Origin: Parabacteroides sp. FAFU027
Lineage (GTDB): Bacteria > Bacteroidota > Bacteroidia > Bacteroidales > UBA7332
Assembly: GCF_022808675.1 (NCBI RefSeq)
Contig: NZ_JAKZKV010000001.1
Coordinates: 558,001 to 622,000 of the forward strand
Direction of reading: 5' to 3'
Length of the DNA: 64,000 nucleotides
Shown here piece by piece: positions 4,171-58,692 of the stretch. The position numbers and the translations under genes were made by a program. Within the stretch, counting starts at the first letter, position 1; the number at the start of each line of letters is the position of its first letter. A model generated the notes under the pieces. It worked only from the letters and a program-made list of their open reading frames with translations. It was not told where the DNA came from and did no database searches.

Positions 4171-5091
4171 ATGACTGTAAATCATTCATCGTTTACAAGA
4201 GACGAGAATAATAGCAATGTGTGGTTGTCTCAAAACAGCGACCAGGAATTTAAATACACCGATCAGGGTATTTCACCGATAGTACTTGAAAGTGAAGCAG
4301 AGGTAGGCAAGGCGATGTTAAATGAGCTGTACAGTACAGCGGCGGCCAAAGAAGGAGATATCAATATTGCCCTGCTTGGCGGAAGAGGAGCGCAGGAGTT
4401 GCACCGTTTGCTGGGAGAGATTGCAAAGGGCACCGAACAGGATGCGCTTCTTGCCCGGCTGAATGTCTTTACTCAGGATGCCCTTGCACCTATGGGGATG
4501 AAGAACGGGTTAAGTTTTGTGCGTGATTTTGAGCGCATACTGGGAGATGATTTCTTCAAAAAGATAAAAAGCTTCACTCCCATGCGTACGGATACGGAAG
4601 ATATAGAGTCTTCGCTGATCGGGTATCTGACTAAACTGGAAGAGCTGGGCGGTTTGGATATATTCTTTATCGGACACGGTCCGGAACAAAACCAAGCATC
4701 ACACCTGGCTTATATAAAACCTTTCTCCGGTGCACTGAATCACCATGTTGCAGGGATTATCCCGATTTCAAGCACCATACTGGAACACCACATCAACAAG
4801 TTTAAAGCGGGAGGCAGTATTATTAGTGAAAGTGATGAAAAGGAGTGCAGATCCGCTAAATACATCCTCACATTAGGGCCGGCTGCAATATTAGGAGCCA
4901 AAAAGATCGTTCAGTCTGTAGTTGATGCCGACTCTGCTCCTGCTAAGATTCAGACGTATGCCAACGTGCTTAACACCCGTATAAGTGCTGATAAAGAAGA
5001 GGCGATGCAGCAATTAAATGCCAATCCCGGCTTATGGATCAGGCTGCATACTAATACTAAGTCTTTTGTGTTGCCTAATTTAGGGGTGTAA
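4171..5091 (+). CDS. Glucosamine-6-phosphate deaminase/6-phosphogluconolactonase-like protein
   Basis: A 306-residue cytoplasmic protein with the NagB/RpiA/phosphogluconolactonase fold. LLGGRGAQELHRLLGE fits the phosphate-binding loop region, and YILTLGPAAILGAKKI fits the conserved C-terminal helix of the family. The active-site segment reads FFIGHGPEQNQASHLAY, where true deaminases have GxGxDGHIAFNEP. The Asp is replaced by Glu, several residues are inserted and the final Glu is missing, so catalysis is doubtful or altered. It may be a sugar-phosphate enzyme with a different specificity. It lies 55 bases after the Ntn hydrolase, so cotranscription is plausible. Confidence 0.75.
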   Translation: MTVNHSSFTRDENNSNVWLSQNSDQEFKYTDQGISPIVLESEAEVGKAMLNELYSTAAAKEGDINIALLGGRGAQELHRLLGEIAKGTEQDALLARLNVFTQDALAPMGMKNGLSFVRDFERILGDDFFKKIKSFTPMRTDTEDIESSLIGYLTKLEELGGLDIFFIGHGPEQNQASHLAYIKPFSGALNHHVAGIIPISSTILEHHINKFKAGGSIISESDEKECRSAKYILTLGPAAILGAKKIVQSVVDADSAPAKIQTYANVLNTRISADKEEAMQQLNANPGLWIRLHTNTKSFVLPNLGV

Positions 5092-5096
5092 TTTGC

Positions 5097-5157
5097 AGCT
5101 ACAAGCTGCTTGAATTTCCAGCACGAGGTACCGCTACGCTCAAACTCGCGCTAGTGG
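5097..5157 (+). repeat. REP-like hairpin repeat, copy 1
   Basis: First, shorter copy of a repeat seen three times in 1.6 kb. It has two nested dyads: AGCTACAAGCTGCT, and CCAGCACGAG...CTCGCGCTAGTGG. Other copies are at 5790-5871 and 6592-6673, all in the same orientation. Confidence 0.75.
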
Positions 5158-5215
5158 GGGAACTTCACTCCGATTAATCATTTCACATATAACGAGTTTC
5201 AATTAAACAGCTCAT

Positions 5216-5582: not shown

Positions 5583-5789
5583 TTATTATAAGCATTTGTA
5601 ATACGAATAAAAATAGGTAATATATTAGCGTCATTGCTAAAATGCTTATTTCTATAGCGGAATAGTTTGTTGTCGGATTGTAAATCCTATTACTATTTAA
5701 AAGGTGGGATTGCAAATCCCACCGACGGTTCCACAACTTTCCACTGTTTATCCGGAGGAACTGGAGCTGCCTTTACGCACGAGGATGAA

Positions 5790-5871
5790 GAATTCTTCGA
5801 ATTCTGAAACAGCTACAAGCTGTTTAGATTTCCAGCACGAGTTACCGCTACGCTCAAACTCGCGCTAGTGG
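5790..5871 (+). repeat. REP-like hairpin repeat, copy 2
   Basis: Full-length copy with three dyads in a row: GAATTCTTCGAATTC, AACAGCTACAAGCTGTT, and CCAGCACGAGTT...AACTCGCGCTAGTGG. It is nearly identical to 6592-6673. Confidence 0.8.
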
Positions 5872-5958
5872 AAGCAAACGATTTCGTATTCTGGTAGTCG
5901 GTTATCCCACTTCAAAAATAAGTGAATCCTGTCGGAATTACGTCATCACAGTAAAAGA

Positions 5959-6168
5959 GTGCGTGATCGCATACTTTTACTGCGTTCGCGTATAAAAAGC
6001 ATGCGTGCATGCACCGAAAGTGTGCGATCACGCAGCCAAAGTGTGCGTGATCGCACGCCAAGTGTTAAACACCGCACACTTTCTGTGCGTGATCGCAGTA
6101 AAAGTGTTAAACATCGCACGGTTTTTGTGCATGATCGCATGCCGGGTGTGCGTGATCGCATGAAATGT
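5959..6168. repeat. Tandem array, ten units of exactly 21 bp
   Basis: Units start at 5959 and every 21 bases up to 6148. The common core is GTGCGTGATCGCA followed, after three variable bases, by AAAGT. One unit (6022) carries the core as its reverse complement (TGCGATCACGCA), and two units (6064, 6106) carry GTTAAACAC/TCGCAC instead. Sequence varies but the 21-base register does not slip. Because 21 is seven codons, long open frames with heptad repeats appear on both strands; I regard these as by-products. Confidence 0.85.
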
Positions 6169-6254
6169 GTGGAAATGGGCTGTTTATGGCTTCTCCTTCA
6201 CACGAATTTGAAAAGTAACTTCTTGGCGCGGGTTTAGCGATAGTGAAAAAAGAC

Positions 6255-6287
6255 AAAGGTCAGAAAGAACGAATCTTTCTGACCTTT
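6255..6287. terminator. Bidirectional terminator hairpin, repeated sequence copy 1
   Basis: AAAGGTCAGAAAGA-acgaa-TCTTTCTGACCTTT, flanked by A and T runs. Nearly the same hairpin occurs at 13093-13139 and 57699-57731, but here no gene ends close by. Confidence 0.7.
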
Positions 6288-6591
6288 GCTTTTTCATATC
6301 CTGAATCGGGAGAGGCTAACATCGTTGCCCGTAGGCATTAAAAACCAACCGTGCAACGAATAACCCAGCTAAACAATGCATAATCTGCATCGATTATTTT
6401 TAAATGCGACGAATATCAACCTTATTTACCGCAAAATATGCAACGAATAAAAGCTCTTTTTTGTGCGAGTTTGAAAAGTAACTCCTGGCGCTGGTTTTGC
6501 TATAGCGTACCCCGTGCCTAAAACTGAGACAGCTTGTAGCTGTCCTTTTCAAAAAGCTAAATGGGCTAAACTGAGCAAAATATATGATGCA

Positions 6592-6673
6592 GAATTCTTC
6601 GAATTCTAAAACAGCTACAAGCTGTTTAGATTTCCAGCACGAGTTCCCGCTGCGCTCAAACTCGCGCTAGTGG
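6592..6673 (+). repeat. REP-like hairpin repeat, copy 3
   Basis: Full-length copy, nearly identical to 5790-5871, with GAATTCTTCGAATTC, the AGCTACAAGCT dyad and the CACGAG...CTCGCGCTAGTGG dyad. Confidence 0.8.
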
Positions 6674-6926
6674 GAGGGTTATTATTTTTTCCGCCCCTAT
6701 ATCCCCTGAAGGGGACTTTTGCAGCAGCAAAAACAAGTAAAGCAGCACATTTATTGACCGACTTAACCAGAATACGGTGTTGTTTGCACTACTTCTCCCC
6801 TCCTGAAAGCTAACGGGATTGGGGCGGTTGGGAGGGCGCAATAGGCAGACCTCCCATAGAGCTCCGGAACGAATACGGCACAAGGACTCGGGAGTCATCA
6901 TCAGTAGATAGGACGCAATGTGAGTA

Positions 6927-13092: not shown

Positions 13093-13139
13093 ATAAAGCA
13101 AAGGTCAGAAAGAGCTATTCTTTCTGACCTTTGCTTTAT
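13093..13139. terminator. Bidirectional terminator, repeated sequence copy 2
   Basis: ATAAAGCAAAGGTCAGAAAG and its reverse complement form a perfect 20-bp stem with a 7-base loop, between the convergent GH43 and cyclophilin genes. Similar hairpins lie at 6255 and 57699. Confidence 0.85.
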
Positions 13140-13156
13140 CATATCTTTATCGGAAA

Positions 13157-13591
13157 TTATTCCGACACTTCGATTTTCAGAATCTTATCGCCCCGACGAA
13201 TCAGGTCAATCACTTCCAAACCTTCCACTACCTTACCAAAGCAAGTGTGTTGACGGTCCAGATGAGAAGTATTTGTGCGCGAATGGCAGATGAAGAACTG
13301 CGAACCACCGGTATTGCGTCCGGCATGTGCCATGGACAATACGCCTCTGTCGTGGTACTGGTTGCCACCTTTCAGCTCACAAGGGATAGAATAACCGGGG
13401 CCACCTGCTCCTGTACCGTCAGGACATCCGCCCTGAATCACAAAATCAGGAATTACACGGTGGAAAGTCAACCCATCGTAAAATCCTTCTTTAGCCAGCT
13501 TGATAAAGTTAGCTACGGTTTTAGGAGCATCCTGCTCGTAAAACTCAACCAGCATCTCGCCTTTTTCGGTAATAATCTTAGCCGTTTTCAT
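13157..13591 (-). CDS. Cyclophilin-type peptidyl-prolyl cis-trans isomerase
   Basis: A 144-residue single-domain cyclophilin that speeds cis-trans change at prolyl bonds. The motifs are FHRVIPDFVIQGGCPDGTG (catalytic Arg and Phe), GVLSMAHAGRNTGGSQFFI (the Met-Gln-Phe pocket) and the final CFGKVVEGLEVID. It begins MKTAKIITEKGEM with no signal peptide, so it is cytoplasmic. It is convergent with the GH43 gene and shares the hairpin between them. Confidence 0.95.
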   Translation of the reverse strand: MKTAKIITEKGEMLVEFYEQDAPKTVANFIKLAKEGFYDGLTFHRVIPDFVIQGGCPDGTGAGGPGYSIPCELKGGNQYHDRGVLSMAHAGRNTGGSQFFICHSRTNTSHLDRQHTCFGKVVEGLEVIDLIRRGDKILKIEVSE

Positions 13592-13770: not shown

Positions 13771-13830
13771 CGGTTAGAGCGCATAATTCATAATCATGAG
13801 GTTCCCAGTTCAATCCCGGGTCGCACTACT
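13771..13830 (+). pseudogene. tRNA-Met (CAT) fragment lacking its 5' end
   Basis: The sequence from GGTTAGAGCGC through the anticodon loop TTCATAA, the T arm and the 3' acceptor TCGCACT is tRNA-like. The bases before it (TTGAATGTTTCC) do not supply the acceptor 5' strand AGTGCGA or the start of the D arm. The anticodon stem (CATAA/TCATG) and the T stem (CCCAG/CCGGG) each carry a mismatch. It is probably a dead copy. Confidence 0.7.
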
Positions 13831-13907: not shown

Positions 13908-13967
13908 GGCGCGATAGTTCAGTTGGTAAGAGCGCATGATTCATAATCATGAGGTCGTAAGTTTAAT
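13908..13967 (+). pseudogene. tRNA-Met (CAT) fragment lacking its 3' end
   Basis: GGCGCGATAGTTCAGTTGG supplies the acceptor and D arm, and CATGA-TTCATAA-TCATG is a perfect anticodon arm. After GAGGTCGTAAGTTTAA the sequence turns into TAATTTATCC, so the T stem does not close and the 3' acceptor strand is missing. It is the reverse case of the fragment 137 bases upstream; the two share the central block and a related downstream hairpin. Confidence 0.7.
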
Positions 13968-13986
13968 AATTTATCCCCCTATAAAC

Positions 13987-27497: not shown

Positions 27498-27653
27498 TAA
27501 GACTTCATCTACAAAAAACCTTGGAGGTTTAATCAATCAATCAGTTTATACCCCATAGCCTCTCCCCGGCTTTGTCTTTCATTTAATGTTCTCCCTGCCT
27601 CAATCAGACACTTTCACTTATTCTTTTGTAAAGACAAATAATGGAGAATTGCC

Positions 27654-27875
27654 GGAAACTCAGTTTCCAATGAGAACTAAGATCAGTTTGACCTGGAAAC
27701 TCAGTTTCTAACGAGAACGGAGCTCAGATCTGCCCGGAAACTCAGTTTCTGATAAGAACCGAGGTCAGTTCTGCCTGGAAACTGAGTTTCTGACAAGAAC
27801 TGACCTCGGTTGGGGCTGGAAACTGAGTTTCCGGGGGGTGGTGAGGGGGAGGTGGAAACTGAGTTTCCGGAGAGT
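27654..27875. repeat. Tandem array of 41-bp units with a palindromic core
   Basis: The core GGAAACTCAGTTTCC, a perfect palindrome, starts at 27654, 27695, 27736, 27777 and 27818, each 41 bases apart, and at 27854 after a shorter unit. Within a unit, a second weaker CAGTT block falls about 21 bases after the first, so each unit looks like 21+20. It sits between convergent genes. The rest of the gap (27498-27943) holds no gene. Confidence 0.85.
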
Positions 27876-35975: not shown

Positions 35976-36066
35976 CTTTACTGTAATTATTACTGTTGTT
36001 GGGTTAAACTCAGGAAATACATTCCTGCAATAACAGACAAACAACAGCTTTGTTTATTACGGGACA

Positions 36067-36074
36067 CAAAGATA
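36067..36074 (-). promoter_or_regulatory. -7 box TATCTTTG for the haem operon
   Basis: The minus strand reads TATCTTTG. The leader to hemA is about 85 bases and carries a perfect hairpin CAGGAA-tgta-TTCCTG near 36012-36030. Confidence 0.65.
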
Positions 36075-36185
36075 AGTCATAAATCCCACTCTGCCGAGCC
36101 TCCCGAACGATGAAATTCCATATTTAAACGGGTTATTTGCCCCGAAATAATGACTTTTCACAGATGTAAACGGTAGTTATGGATA

Positions 36186-36682
36186 TAACGGGACATGGTA
36201 ACAGTATAACGATCCAAGATCAGAATATAACGATAAAAGGTACGGCTGTAACGACGCAGAATATGATATAACGGCCCTAAGGAAGCAATATCGCTACGCA
36301 GAATGCGATATAACGATACAAGGTTCGCCTGTAACGGTGCAGAATGGGATATAACGGTTGAAGGTTCGCCTGTAACTATGCAGAATGCGATATAACGATG
36401 AAAGTTCTGCCTGTAACGACGCAGAATGGAGTATAACCGTTGAAGATTGGTCTGTAACGATACGGGGGATTCATGCCCGAATGCGGGAGACGGTTGCCGG
36501 AATACAGGATGCGTTTGCCGTATCACGGGAACCTCTTGCCGGAGTAAGGGAACCTCTTGCCGGATAACGGGAAAGGGTTGCCGGACTAAGGGATTCTTTT
36601 GCCCGAACACGGGAGACGCTTGCCGGAATGAGGGATGCTGTTGCCGGAGTAAGGGAAATGGTTGCCGGAATGAGGGAAACGG
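36186..36682. repeat. Compound tandem array: 21+20 bp units, then ten 21-bp units
   Basis: In the first part (36186-36472) TAACG recurs at steps of 21 and 20 bases in turn, e.g. 36311, 36332, 36352, 36373, 36393, 36414, 36434 and 36455, giving 41-bp units. In the second part, TTGCCGGA-type units start at 36473 (ATGCCCGA) and then every 21 bases from 36494 to 36662 without a slip; the common form is TTGCCGGAATAAGGGAA. It lies between divergent hemA and the lipoprotein gene. The frames open across it are by-products of the period. Confidence 0.88.
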
Positions 36683-36861
36683 CTAACTGAGCAATATTTC
36701 TGTTAATTACAACTATAACCGGCTATATCATTGACAGTTTTCTTGAAATGATTACTTTTAGAGCGGAAAAAGTTTTTTTTTGAGTGAATGATGTTGATAT
36801 ATTTAATGGAAAAGAAATCCTATACACCCAACGGCTATTACAAAAAAAAAACACATAAAAA

Positions 36862-37509
36862 ATGAAACATAAGATTTGCCTCTTTGCGATAGTTATTTTA
36901 AGTGCTTGTACCGTAAAAACCACGCACAAAACAGTCAATAAGATTAAGTTTAGTAACAAAGTAATCTCTGACTCACTATTAGCTAAAATACCGTCAATCA
37001 AATATTCAAGATTTGAGTTGAATTCAAACTCAAATCAGAAAATCGAACAACGCTATATCAAACTAACCCAAAATCAAATTGACTTTTTCTTTACATTTAA
37101 AGAGCAAAAGAAACTCAATGATTTTATGGAGTTTAAAACATATTTCCTCGGAAAGAAACAACTAAGCAAAGATAAACAGGCCATCTTTCTGATTTGCGAT
37201 GCTGACTATATGGGCATCTACCTGTATTGTGCGATAATAAATCAAACCGGAAAATTAATCGGAAAATTCAATCCCGCATATCTGGAAGTCGATGCCGATT
37301 ATTCGATAAATGGGAAAGGTGAATTTGTTAATGATTCGACCTACCGATTTACTGAAGTAGATTTTCAATACATTGACGACAATCACAAAAAAGCGACACA
37401 AGATTCGTTGATTAGAATTTTCCACATCACACCAAAGCAAATTCAGATAATGAAGGAAACAAAATTCCCTACCGATACAATTAGAGAAGAGGAAAATCTC
37501 ATAAACTAA
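36862..37509 (+). CDS. Hypothetical lipoprotein
   Basis: A 215-residue protein with a lipoprotein leader MKHKICLFAIVILSAC (Cys16). The mature part is Lys- and Ile-rich and has no known motif; FLICDADYMGIYLYCAI is its most hydrophobic part. The gene is AT-rich relative to icd next to it. It lies alone between the tandem array and a bidirectional terminator. I do not recognise the family. Confidence 0.6.
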   Translation: MKHKICLFAIVILSACTVKTTHKTVNKIKFSNKVISDSLLAKIPSIKYSRFELNSNSNQKIEQRYIKLTQNQIDFFFTFKEQKKLNDFMEFKTYFLGKKQLSKDKQAIFLICDADYMGIYLYCAIINQTGKLIGKFNPAYLEVDADYSINGKGEFVNDSTYRFTEVDFQYIDDNHKKATQDSLIRIFHITPKQIQIMKETKFPTDTIREEENLIN

Positions 37510-57672: not shown

Positions 57673-57698
57673 CAGTAATACCAGCAGCATAAAATAAC

Positions 57699-57731
57699 AA
57701 AGGTCAGAAAGAGCGATTCTTTCTGACCCTT
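57699..57731 (+). terminator. Terminator, repeated sequence copy 3
   Basis: AAGGTCAGAAAG-agcgatt-CTTTCTGACCCTT after the four-gene operon; nearly the same stem as at 6255 and 13093. Confidence 0.8.
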
Positions 57732-57892
57732 GCTGTATAAGATTTTAACCGGAAATAACCTGATCGCCTGTGAGACCAGACAAAGCAAATCGCCCCACCC
57801 AATCACAAAATCGCCACTATCACTTTGACAGAAAAAACAAACCATTCACTCAAAAAAGGTAAGCAAATACCCCAATATCCGGTTTTTACCCG

Positions 57893-57936
57893 ATACGTGG
57901 ACCATACGTGGAGCATACGTGGAGCATACGTGGAGC
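57893..57936 (+). repeat. 11-bp tandem array A
   Basis: ATACGTGGAGC (first unit ATACGTGGACC) starts at 57893, 57904, 57915 and 57926. Confidence 0.85.
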
Positions 57937-58283
57937 ATCAGCGGTACAAAACAGGGAGTATTTTGTGGTTTGGTGAATAGCAAAATGTCAAAACGTGTGC
58001 AGCAAAGAAAAGAACTACAACATCCTCTGATACGGGTTAGACTTTCGCAAAACCCTCGCTAACGAGGGGCAACGGCATTTCCTTTTGTCAATGAGAAGAT
58101 CAGTACGTGAAACCTTTACCCCCAATAAATATAAATACTTTTAGGAAACTTCACTGGTAAATACAACCTGATATACAAGAGATTTCCATTATTAATATGC
58201 AATATTACCAGCCCAATACACAACAATCCGAAAGTAAACAAACCAAAACCATTTCAATATAAAACCATACATCAACTACTGAC

Positions 58284-58338: not shown

Positions 58339-58638
58339 AACAGAGGCAGGGCAATTTCTACAAGTTAATCCCCCTGCCAGATAAATACTATCCGGTAAAT
58401 TACCGGAACGGTGTTATCTGTCGAATGCCTTTTTTATTATAACGCTGACAGGAGCAAGCACGCTGTCGGGTTCTTCGGCTCACCTTGATGTGCGGCCTCT
58501 CCTGATAATTCACTCCCGTTTTTTAGGTTCTGCTAAAACATAGCCGCTCACACACCGCCGACTATTGCCTCTCCCCCTCCGTTATCATTCTGACAGAAAA
58601 AATGCAACATTGCGGCTTTTTCATCAAACCACCCGGAT

Positions 58639-58692
58639 GTGGACAACTGTGGAGCATATGTGGAGTTGCTGTGGAGTTGCTGTAGAGGAAGA
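58639..58692 (+). repeat. 11-bp tandem array C
   Basis: GTGGAG starts at 58649, 58660 and 58671, with a weaker GTAGAG at 58682 and GTGGAC at 58639 (10 bases before). Two units are GTGGAGTTGCT. Confidence 0.75.

Follow-up and report, generated by a model that had tools for sequence, protein, structure and literature searches.

The stretch of DNA analysed here (the window, 64,000 nucleotides from Parabacteroides sp. FAFU027) contains an intergenic array of ten 21-bp units, which appears to belong to a genome-wide class of intergenic arrays whose units stay about two turns of B-DNA apart even as their sequence drifts. The arrays share a period, and between the genome studied and a related one (G002) their sequences drift, entire units are gained and lost, and no change in length other than by whole units is seen. 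As an explanation we tentatively favour a spacing-constrained DNA scaffold, on which a protein would assemble at two-turn intervals; we regard this as quite possible.

The window array lies between convergent genes, and each of its ten units measures exactly 21 bp, with zero internal indels (Table 1). Its self-match was 0.54 at lag 21 and 0.62 at lag 42, values reached by none of 1000 dinucleotide shuffles (best-lag mean 0.33, maximum 0.45). The ten-unit, 21-bp periodicity is real and non-random, and the register and the shuffle control both agree with an earlier note on this DNA, which had described ten units of exactly this length, one of them with an inverted core. That note had also ascribed a common core to the units. 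The core GTGCGTGATCGCA is present, exactly in four of the ten units and with at most two mismatches in five, but it is not found in every unit: the other five have four to six mismatches, and two units are of a second type (GTTAAACAyCGCAC). The mean pairwise identity among units is 0.56, and the array lacks the pattern of identical repeats and spacers of a CRISPR.

Table 1. Array features located in the window; G002 is the related genome used for comparison.
Feature	Position	Strand	Support
Ten 21-bp units, cores TGCG-N4-CGCA and GTTAAACAyCG	5959..6168	+	Register, shuffle control, syntenic G002 array
Degenerate upstream unit, or leader (CGTCATCACAG...)	5938..5958	+	Aligned in contig-9 paralog and G002
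Inverted-core unit (GTGCGATCACGCA)	6022..6042 (core 6022-6034)	-	Same position in contig-9 paralog
Tail 3' of the window array (GTGGAAATGGGCTGTTTATGGC...)	6169..6209	+	Similar tail after contig-9 and contig-3 copies
Second array, 41-bp period (2 x 20.5), palindromes GGAAACTCAGTTTCC alternating with GAACTGAGCTCAGTTC	27651..27834	+	One extra 41-bp unit in G002
Third array, 41-bp period (2 x 20.5), TATAACG / TGTAACG units	36180..36461	+	Many substitutions against G002, length unchanged
Fourth array, ten 21-bp units TGCCGGAATAAGGGAAACGGT	36474..36682	+	Length unchanged in G002 over the covered part (to 36656)

The genome (4.9 Mb in 35 contigs) holds further copies of the window array. Contig 9 carries a collinear paralog (88% over 199 nt), contig 3 a partial copy and contig 5 a re-ordered copy. 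Those on contigs 5 and 9 maintain the 21-bp register without shift, and by eye the contig-3 copy has one extra base in a unit. Within the window, the third array contains two one-base register shifts. The five neighbouring proteins scanned against Pfam comprise a choloylglycine-hydrolase-family protein, a carboxymuconolactone decarboxylase, a Sde182 nucleoside-hydrolase-like protein and two proteins with no match; a replication gene, the expected neighbour of plasmid iterons, is absent among these five.

Other repeated sequences were observed in the window. A dispersed element with CAGCTACAAGCTG and GCTCAAACTCGCGCTA boxes occurs in three copies around the window array (5070-5160, 5784-5874 and 6586-6676), and relatives of it are found near the contig-9 paralog and the array at C3:128510. 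The dispersed REP-like element adjoining the window array was considered as a part of it; only 2 of 30 array regions have this element within 300 bp, compared with 3 of 171 gap midpoints, and it is therefore not a component of the array. A palindromic, terminator-like sequence (CAAAGGTCAGAAAGA...TCTTTCTGACCTTTG) has three copies (6254-6312, 13099-13157 and 57698-57756; 80-86% alike over 59 nt), the first of them followed by T runs on both strands. Short tandem repeats with 11-bp units (ATACGTGGAGC / TGTGGAGTTGC) are present at 57893-57938 and 58637-58687, the latter related to the array at C1:351179. Rfam detected no RNA family in the window other than one tRNA match, a weak one at 13908-13981 (30.6 bits) where ARAGORN reported none; two tRNA-like repeats 153 bp apart (13772-13814 and 13925-13967) are perhaps pseudo-tRNAs.

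A lag scan (lags 12-130, threshold z ≥ 5.5) of 664 kb of the 4.9-Mb genome (C1:1-400000, C3:1-200000 and the window) revealed 45 arrays, and block shuffles of 10 windows (640 kb) gave 3 scan positions above the threshold, with a maximum z of 5.7. Setting aside 12 arrays inside long frames (at least 90% within one frame of at least 150 codons, so that an array outside long frames is one covered to less than 90%) and two tandem clusters, at C1:481 and C1:362731, judged by eye from their consensus to be tRNA-like, left 31. Their period is 21 bp or a multiple in 18, 41 bp (2 x 20.5) in five, 22 bp in one and 23 bp in four; the remaining three repeat at 43, 11 (lags 22 and 33) and 14 bp. Hence 23 of the 31 repeat at 20.5 or 21 bp and 28 lie within 20.5-23 bp, and next to one of the 18 lies an additional 41-bp array, the third of Table 1. 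The earlier note had expected arrays with a period of about 21 bp elsewhere in the genome, and they proved abundant.

The 14-bp array was dropped and the other 30 regions were carried forward. BLAST related 12 of them to one another, as six pairs, and the others had no match to any sampled array; when the arrays are printed in register, most show units with a conserved core and a variable remainder. This near-uniform repeat length across mostly unrelated sequences suggests that the class is defined by its period and that spacing is more important than sequence. When a circular profile was fitted to 39 arrays (30 from the own-genome sample, two paralogs, two from the congeneric genome G001 and five loci from named MAGs; the 43-bp array was left out), the register shifted by one base 7 times over 9332 bases, next to 2862 mismatches; detection bias applies to this count of shifts. 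The 23-bp arrays (C1:301439-301976, 323161-323395 and 377994-378168; C3:14155-14285) form a sub-class in which all four have a dyad-symmetric unit at P < 0.05, and 23 bp is also the length of the BrickBuilt repeat of Porphyromonas gingivalis (PMC4596501).

We also considered a role tied to gene context, such as that of terminators between convergent genes, and rejected it, as there was no clear context bias. According to the gene calls of an in-house codon-usage caller, 15 of 28 arrays are located between tandem, 7 between divergent and 6 between convergent genes, compared with 124, 44 and 17 of the control gaps of at least 150 bp. In the tandem context, the preference for gene 3' ends was not significant (11 vs 5, P 0.21).

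The genome G002 is mostly about 90-96% identical to ours in syntenic DNA. Among 11 array loci compared, the array is present in G002 in eight and missing in two, and one locus had no match. The two G002 loci lacking the array comprise one empty site, where an array-bearing segment of about 400 bp is missing between matching flanks, and one unrelated open frame. The latter, of about 1.1 kb, lies between the same flanks in place of the array C1:211205-211542 (G002 C307:1481-2637). With two of the 10 informative loci devoid of an array, any single array is dispensable. The syntenic copy of the window array is shorter at two places, each time by exactly 21 bp. The gap at about 6030 is exclusive to G002, and the one at about 6126 is common to G002 and the contig-9 paralog, so that the window copy probably gained one unit there. 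Thus the term slip-free, used in the earlier note, is wrong for this array: whole 21-bp units are gained and lost.

Across the eight syntenic arrays, 2029 sites contain 186 substitutions and 5 indels, of 21, 21, 21, 41 and 62 bp; in the non-coding flanks, 3659 sites contain 247 substitutions and 17 indels of 1-4 bp. The difference in small indels between arrays and flanks was significant (Fisher P 1.6e-4) and unchanged at three gap penalties, and stretches called coding contained two more indels, of 13 and 3 bp. The 62-bp indel was counted as unit-sized (63-1), being three units of which the outermost, a degenerate one, has a 1-bp change. At these loci the sequence of the arrays drifts no more slowly than that of the flanks, although one locus, where units may have been exchanged, inflates the array substitutions (65 of 152 in a seven-locus count). 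Homopolymer runs are fewer in the arrays than in the flanks (18 vs 104); corrected for this, 6.9 non-unit indels were expected and 0 counted (P(0) 0.001); splitting the 62-bp case yields one 1-bp indel and a hand-calculated P(at most 1) of about 0.008. Since the arrays were found by a fixed-lag scan, the branch of the scanned genome (G000) is biased toward indel-free arrays; restricted to the G002 branch, a calculation by hand gives an expectation of about 3.4 and a P of about 0.03. The earlier note had linked its reading to the scarcity of indels inside the arrays of related genomes, and in G002 we observed whole-unit changes only, next to non-coding flanks with many small indels. Its proposal of selection on spacing is moderately supported by these counts as regards a constraint on length, and is tempered by a scan that favours indel-free arrays.

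The fixed length might also have arisen in selfish or neutral intergenic minisatellites of the BrickBuilt/PgRS kind, in which spacing would be maintained without selection. This is the main rival explanation, somewhat doubtful in our estimate. The period would be set by the first duplication, through a staggered cut of fixed length or through a template jump, and preserved afterwards by in-register recombination between units. Such a history is consistent with the paralogous copies with a common tail at several places in the genome, with the presence or absence of arrays between relatives (the missing segment and the unrelated open frame described above) and with the gain and loss of whole units; furthermore, the 22-, 23- and 41-nt repeats of P. 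gingivalis constitute nearly the same set of periods (PMC4596501). It does not explain why small indels are lacking inside the arrays while substitutions accumulate, nor why one period is common to mostly unrelated families. In addition, terminal repeats of the IS5 type (GAGACCTTTGCA type, at most two mismatches) are not beyond chance in the window (3 matches vs 4.9 expected); located at 4422, 6712 and 31804, they do not enclose the array, and any target duplication is hypothetical.

To characterize the units further, we evaluated their symmetry and folding. In 17 of 31 arrays the consensus unit is dyad-symmetric beyond column permutation, and in 14 there is no significant dyad; the consensus of the window array has a symmetry of 0.59 against a null of 0.44 (P 0.004), and is thus palindromic in the manner of a REP/BIME unit. 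The window array also folds far better than its shuffles on both strands (z -7.45 and -6.00). These properties are those expected of REP/BIME-like hairpin arrays, which would act in RNA or single-stranded DNA by protecting mRNA 3' ends, by termination or as the target of a hairpin-recognising transposase, and in 16 of 31 arrays the fold z is -3 or lower on both strands (mean z -4.8 vs -1.9 in 40 control intergenic segments). We rank this alternative third and consider it unlikely. The fold z is above -3 on both strands in 13 of the 31 arrays, a bimodality that led us to reject RNA structure as a property of the whole class, and strands with z below -2 amount to 58% in arrays vs 45% in controls. 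Moreover, a hairpin does not require a fixed spacing of 21 bp, and the preference for gene 3' ends was, as indicated above, not significant.

Pairing between the arms was also assessed. Complementarity over 28 arrays was 0.507 within the same unit and 0.508 across units, and same-unit pairing was significantly better (P < 0.05) in five of them; the window array (0.48 vs 0.55) is among the 23 in which it was not. The clearest exception in favour of hairpins is the 21-bp array C3:191199-191607 (L058), with 0.66 vs 0.51 (P 0.0005), where compensations of the GACTTCAAGTC / GAGTTGAACTC type can be seen by eye. Arms generally devoid of covariation argue against hairpins as the common function. Their independent conservation fits better with recognition by a symmetric protein than with base pairing. 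Curved DNA was rejected as a common property, as only 4 of 31 arrays, including the window array (P 0.027), had A/T phasing above that of column-permuted units; the combined P of 0.008 leaves at most a weak signal for curvature.

A period of 21 bp corresponds to seven codons, and the arrays could in principle encode heptad repeats. A 92-codon frame crosses the window array (5959-6237), at least one frame is open in 7 of the 18 own-genome arrays whose period is 21 or 42, a called frame encloses 2 of 30 array regions, and 21-bp periodic coding repeats are known in the group, as illustrated by an in-frame heptad in L183. The remaining 11 of the 18 have stops in all six frames, and the 41-bp and 23-bp arrays are unable to keep a frame; one 41-bp unit was moreover gained or lost relative to G002. 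In six arrays compared with G002 the substitutions are mostly non-synonymous in nearly every frame, with no synonymous bias; both open frames of the window array acquire two stops each in G002, and the 92-codon frame that crosses it has no Pfam match. Coding by the window array is very unlikely, and heptad coding, which we consider scarcely credible as the explanation of the class, was rejected for it and for most of the others; individual arrays, such as the two inside a called frame, may still code.

To gain insight into the distribution of these arrays, GTDB contigs were scanned for TGCG-N4-CGCA-N9-TGCGTGATCGCA. Five stretches were retrieved, three from two Paludibacter MAGs, one from Prolixibacteraceae and one from an uncultured Bacteroidetes, and all five hold arrays with a period of about 21 bp; in L025 the core is present in both orientations, and L026 has two one-base register shifts. 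The recurrence of TGCG-N4-CGCA units at 21 bp in the Paludibacter and Prolixibacteraceae MAGs is a point in favour of the scaffold. The stretches of Paludibacter LaCa_MAG_3 and Prolixibacteraceae UBA12447 contain 41- and 21-bp arrays beyond the initial matches, at a density biased by the choice of stretches partly around known matches. Non-coding repeats of 51, 72, 16 and 102 bp are present in the Paludibacter and Prolixibacteraceae stretches as well, which makes the period lock less exclusive there. The second Paludibacter MAG (G151, UBA6032) showed no further array in 100 kb.

Among 148 genomes of the order, the window array was matched at E ≤ 0.001 in its own genome only. In G001, of the same genus, 196 kb contain three arrays with periods of 21, 41 and 21 bp, one of them under an open frame over 85% of its span; by eye, their unit sequences differ from those of our genome. 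Synteny with G001 (18-kb stretches; L105, L106) was observed to stop at array-bearing gene gaps at two of four block ends, few cases in all (window 36044-36862 and C3:137938-138289). A thin sample of 18 other families of the order (530 kb, slightly stricter threshold, lags up to 100; windows with N were dropped in the scan of G003) gave a single non-coding array with a period of 20.5-23 bp, of 23 bp in G016, together with non-coding arrays of other periods, 33/15 and 87 bp (G011, G015). The 21-bp array of L183 proved to be coding, the heptad frame mentioned above, and was left out of the non-coding arrays.

According to the scaffold model, the duplex itself would be the functional element. Each unit would be contacted by a protein, probably dimeric for the dyad-symmetric families, and neighbouring bound proteins would touch, so that the units would have to follow one another at a fixed interval along a single face of the helix. 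In this arrangement the gain or loss of a whole unit would be tolerated, and a shift of the register by one or two bases would not; for the window array, the dimers on one DNA face proposed by the earlier note are a possible form of it. The four arrays with a 23-bp period, a length other than two helical turns, speak against the model, as do the 14 arrays without a significant dyad, the dispensability of any single array, the unbiased gene context and the lack of a common sequence that one protein could read; the binding protein is still hypothetical. A broader proposal, which we judge improbable, is that the arrays represent an undescribed chromosomal system of a group of Bacteroidales, with some two hundred intergenic scaffolds of mostly unrelated sequence per genome (an extrapolation from 31 in 664 kb to 4.9 Mb) following one two-turn ruler and read by spacing and symmetry, not by sequence. 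If true, the scaffolds might have a part in nucleoid organisation, or flag sites for a duplication enzyme of fixed length (a ruler). Arrays of free sequence and fixed period throughout a genome would amount to a natural experiment on the information carried by DNA spacing alone, and would offer a testable route to a spacing-reading protein or to such an enzyme.

Tandem repeats are normally recognised by their sequence and vary in length. Plasmid iterons are tandem direct repeats about two helical turns long; the arrays described here differ from them in that tens occur in 664 kb of chromosome and in that no rep gene was found among the five neighbours scanned. BldC, which binds direct repeats of varying number as cooperative multimers through short, sequence-specific half-sites, AATTXXXX(C) (PMC5859096), is a precedent for filament-forming binding to direct repeats, whereas here the protein partner is hypothetical. 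In marine Beggiatoaceae, 169 intergenic sets of TAACTGA direct repeats were described in one genome (PMC4679880), where one 7-nt sequence is repeated; in our arrays the sequences differ and the length is shared. REPs are short palindromic extragenic repeats with many copies, most of them in two families with GTAG or CGTC tags (PMC3733652). A palindromic unit is shared with the REP/BIME elements, but the common property here is the period rather than the sequence, and about half of the arrays are non-palindromic.

The array class falls among the bacterial intergenic minisatellites, a known kind. In the portion of the open-licence literature consulted, sequence-unrelated, length-locked 21-bp arrays have no recognisable report beyond the 22-, 23- and 41-nt repeats of P. 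gingivalis. In that species, the BrickBuilt and the related PgRS (MITE464) elements are MITEs with 23- or 41-nt imperfect tandem repeats, and 22-nt repeats are found there too (PMC4596501). As far as they are described in that report, our arrays resemble them in being intergenic and dispersed in a genome of the order Bacteroidales, in the gain and loss of whole repeats, which in P. gingivalis occurs between strains, and in their presence or absence at some sites; BrickBuilt elements also have predicted long stem-loops (PMC4596501). BrickBuilt is one sequence family of 19 copies, with a defined leader and tail, IS5-like TIRs and 0-6% indels within the element (PMC4596501). In contrast, our arrays comprise mostly unrelated families with one period, chiefly 21 bp, and the window array has no internal indel. 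Neither its 21-bp period nor the IS5-like ends in the window, whose number and position were given above, correspond to BrickBuilt/PgRS, and the 23- and 41-bp arrays of the genome are likened to them by length alone. The nearly identical set of periods makes a common origin of the phenomenon plausible. Arrays of free sequence and fixed period, as proposed here for Parabacteroides sp. FAFU027, would make the 22-, 23- and 41-nt minisatellites of P. gingivalis, so far isolated cases, part of a broader class.
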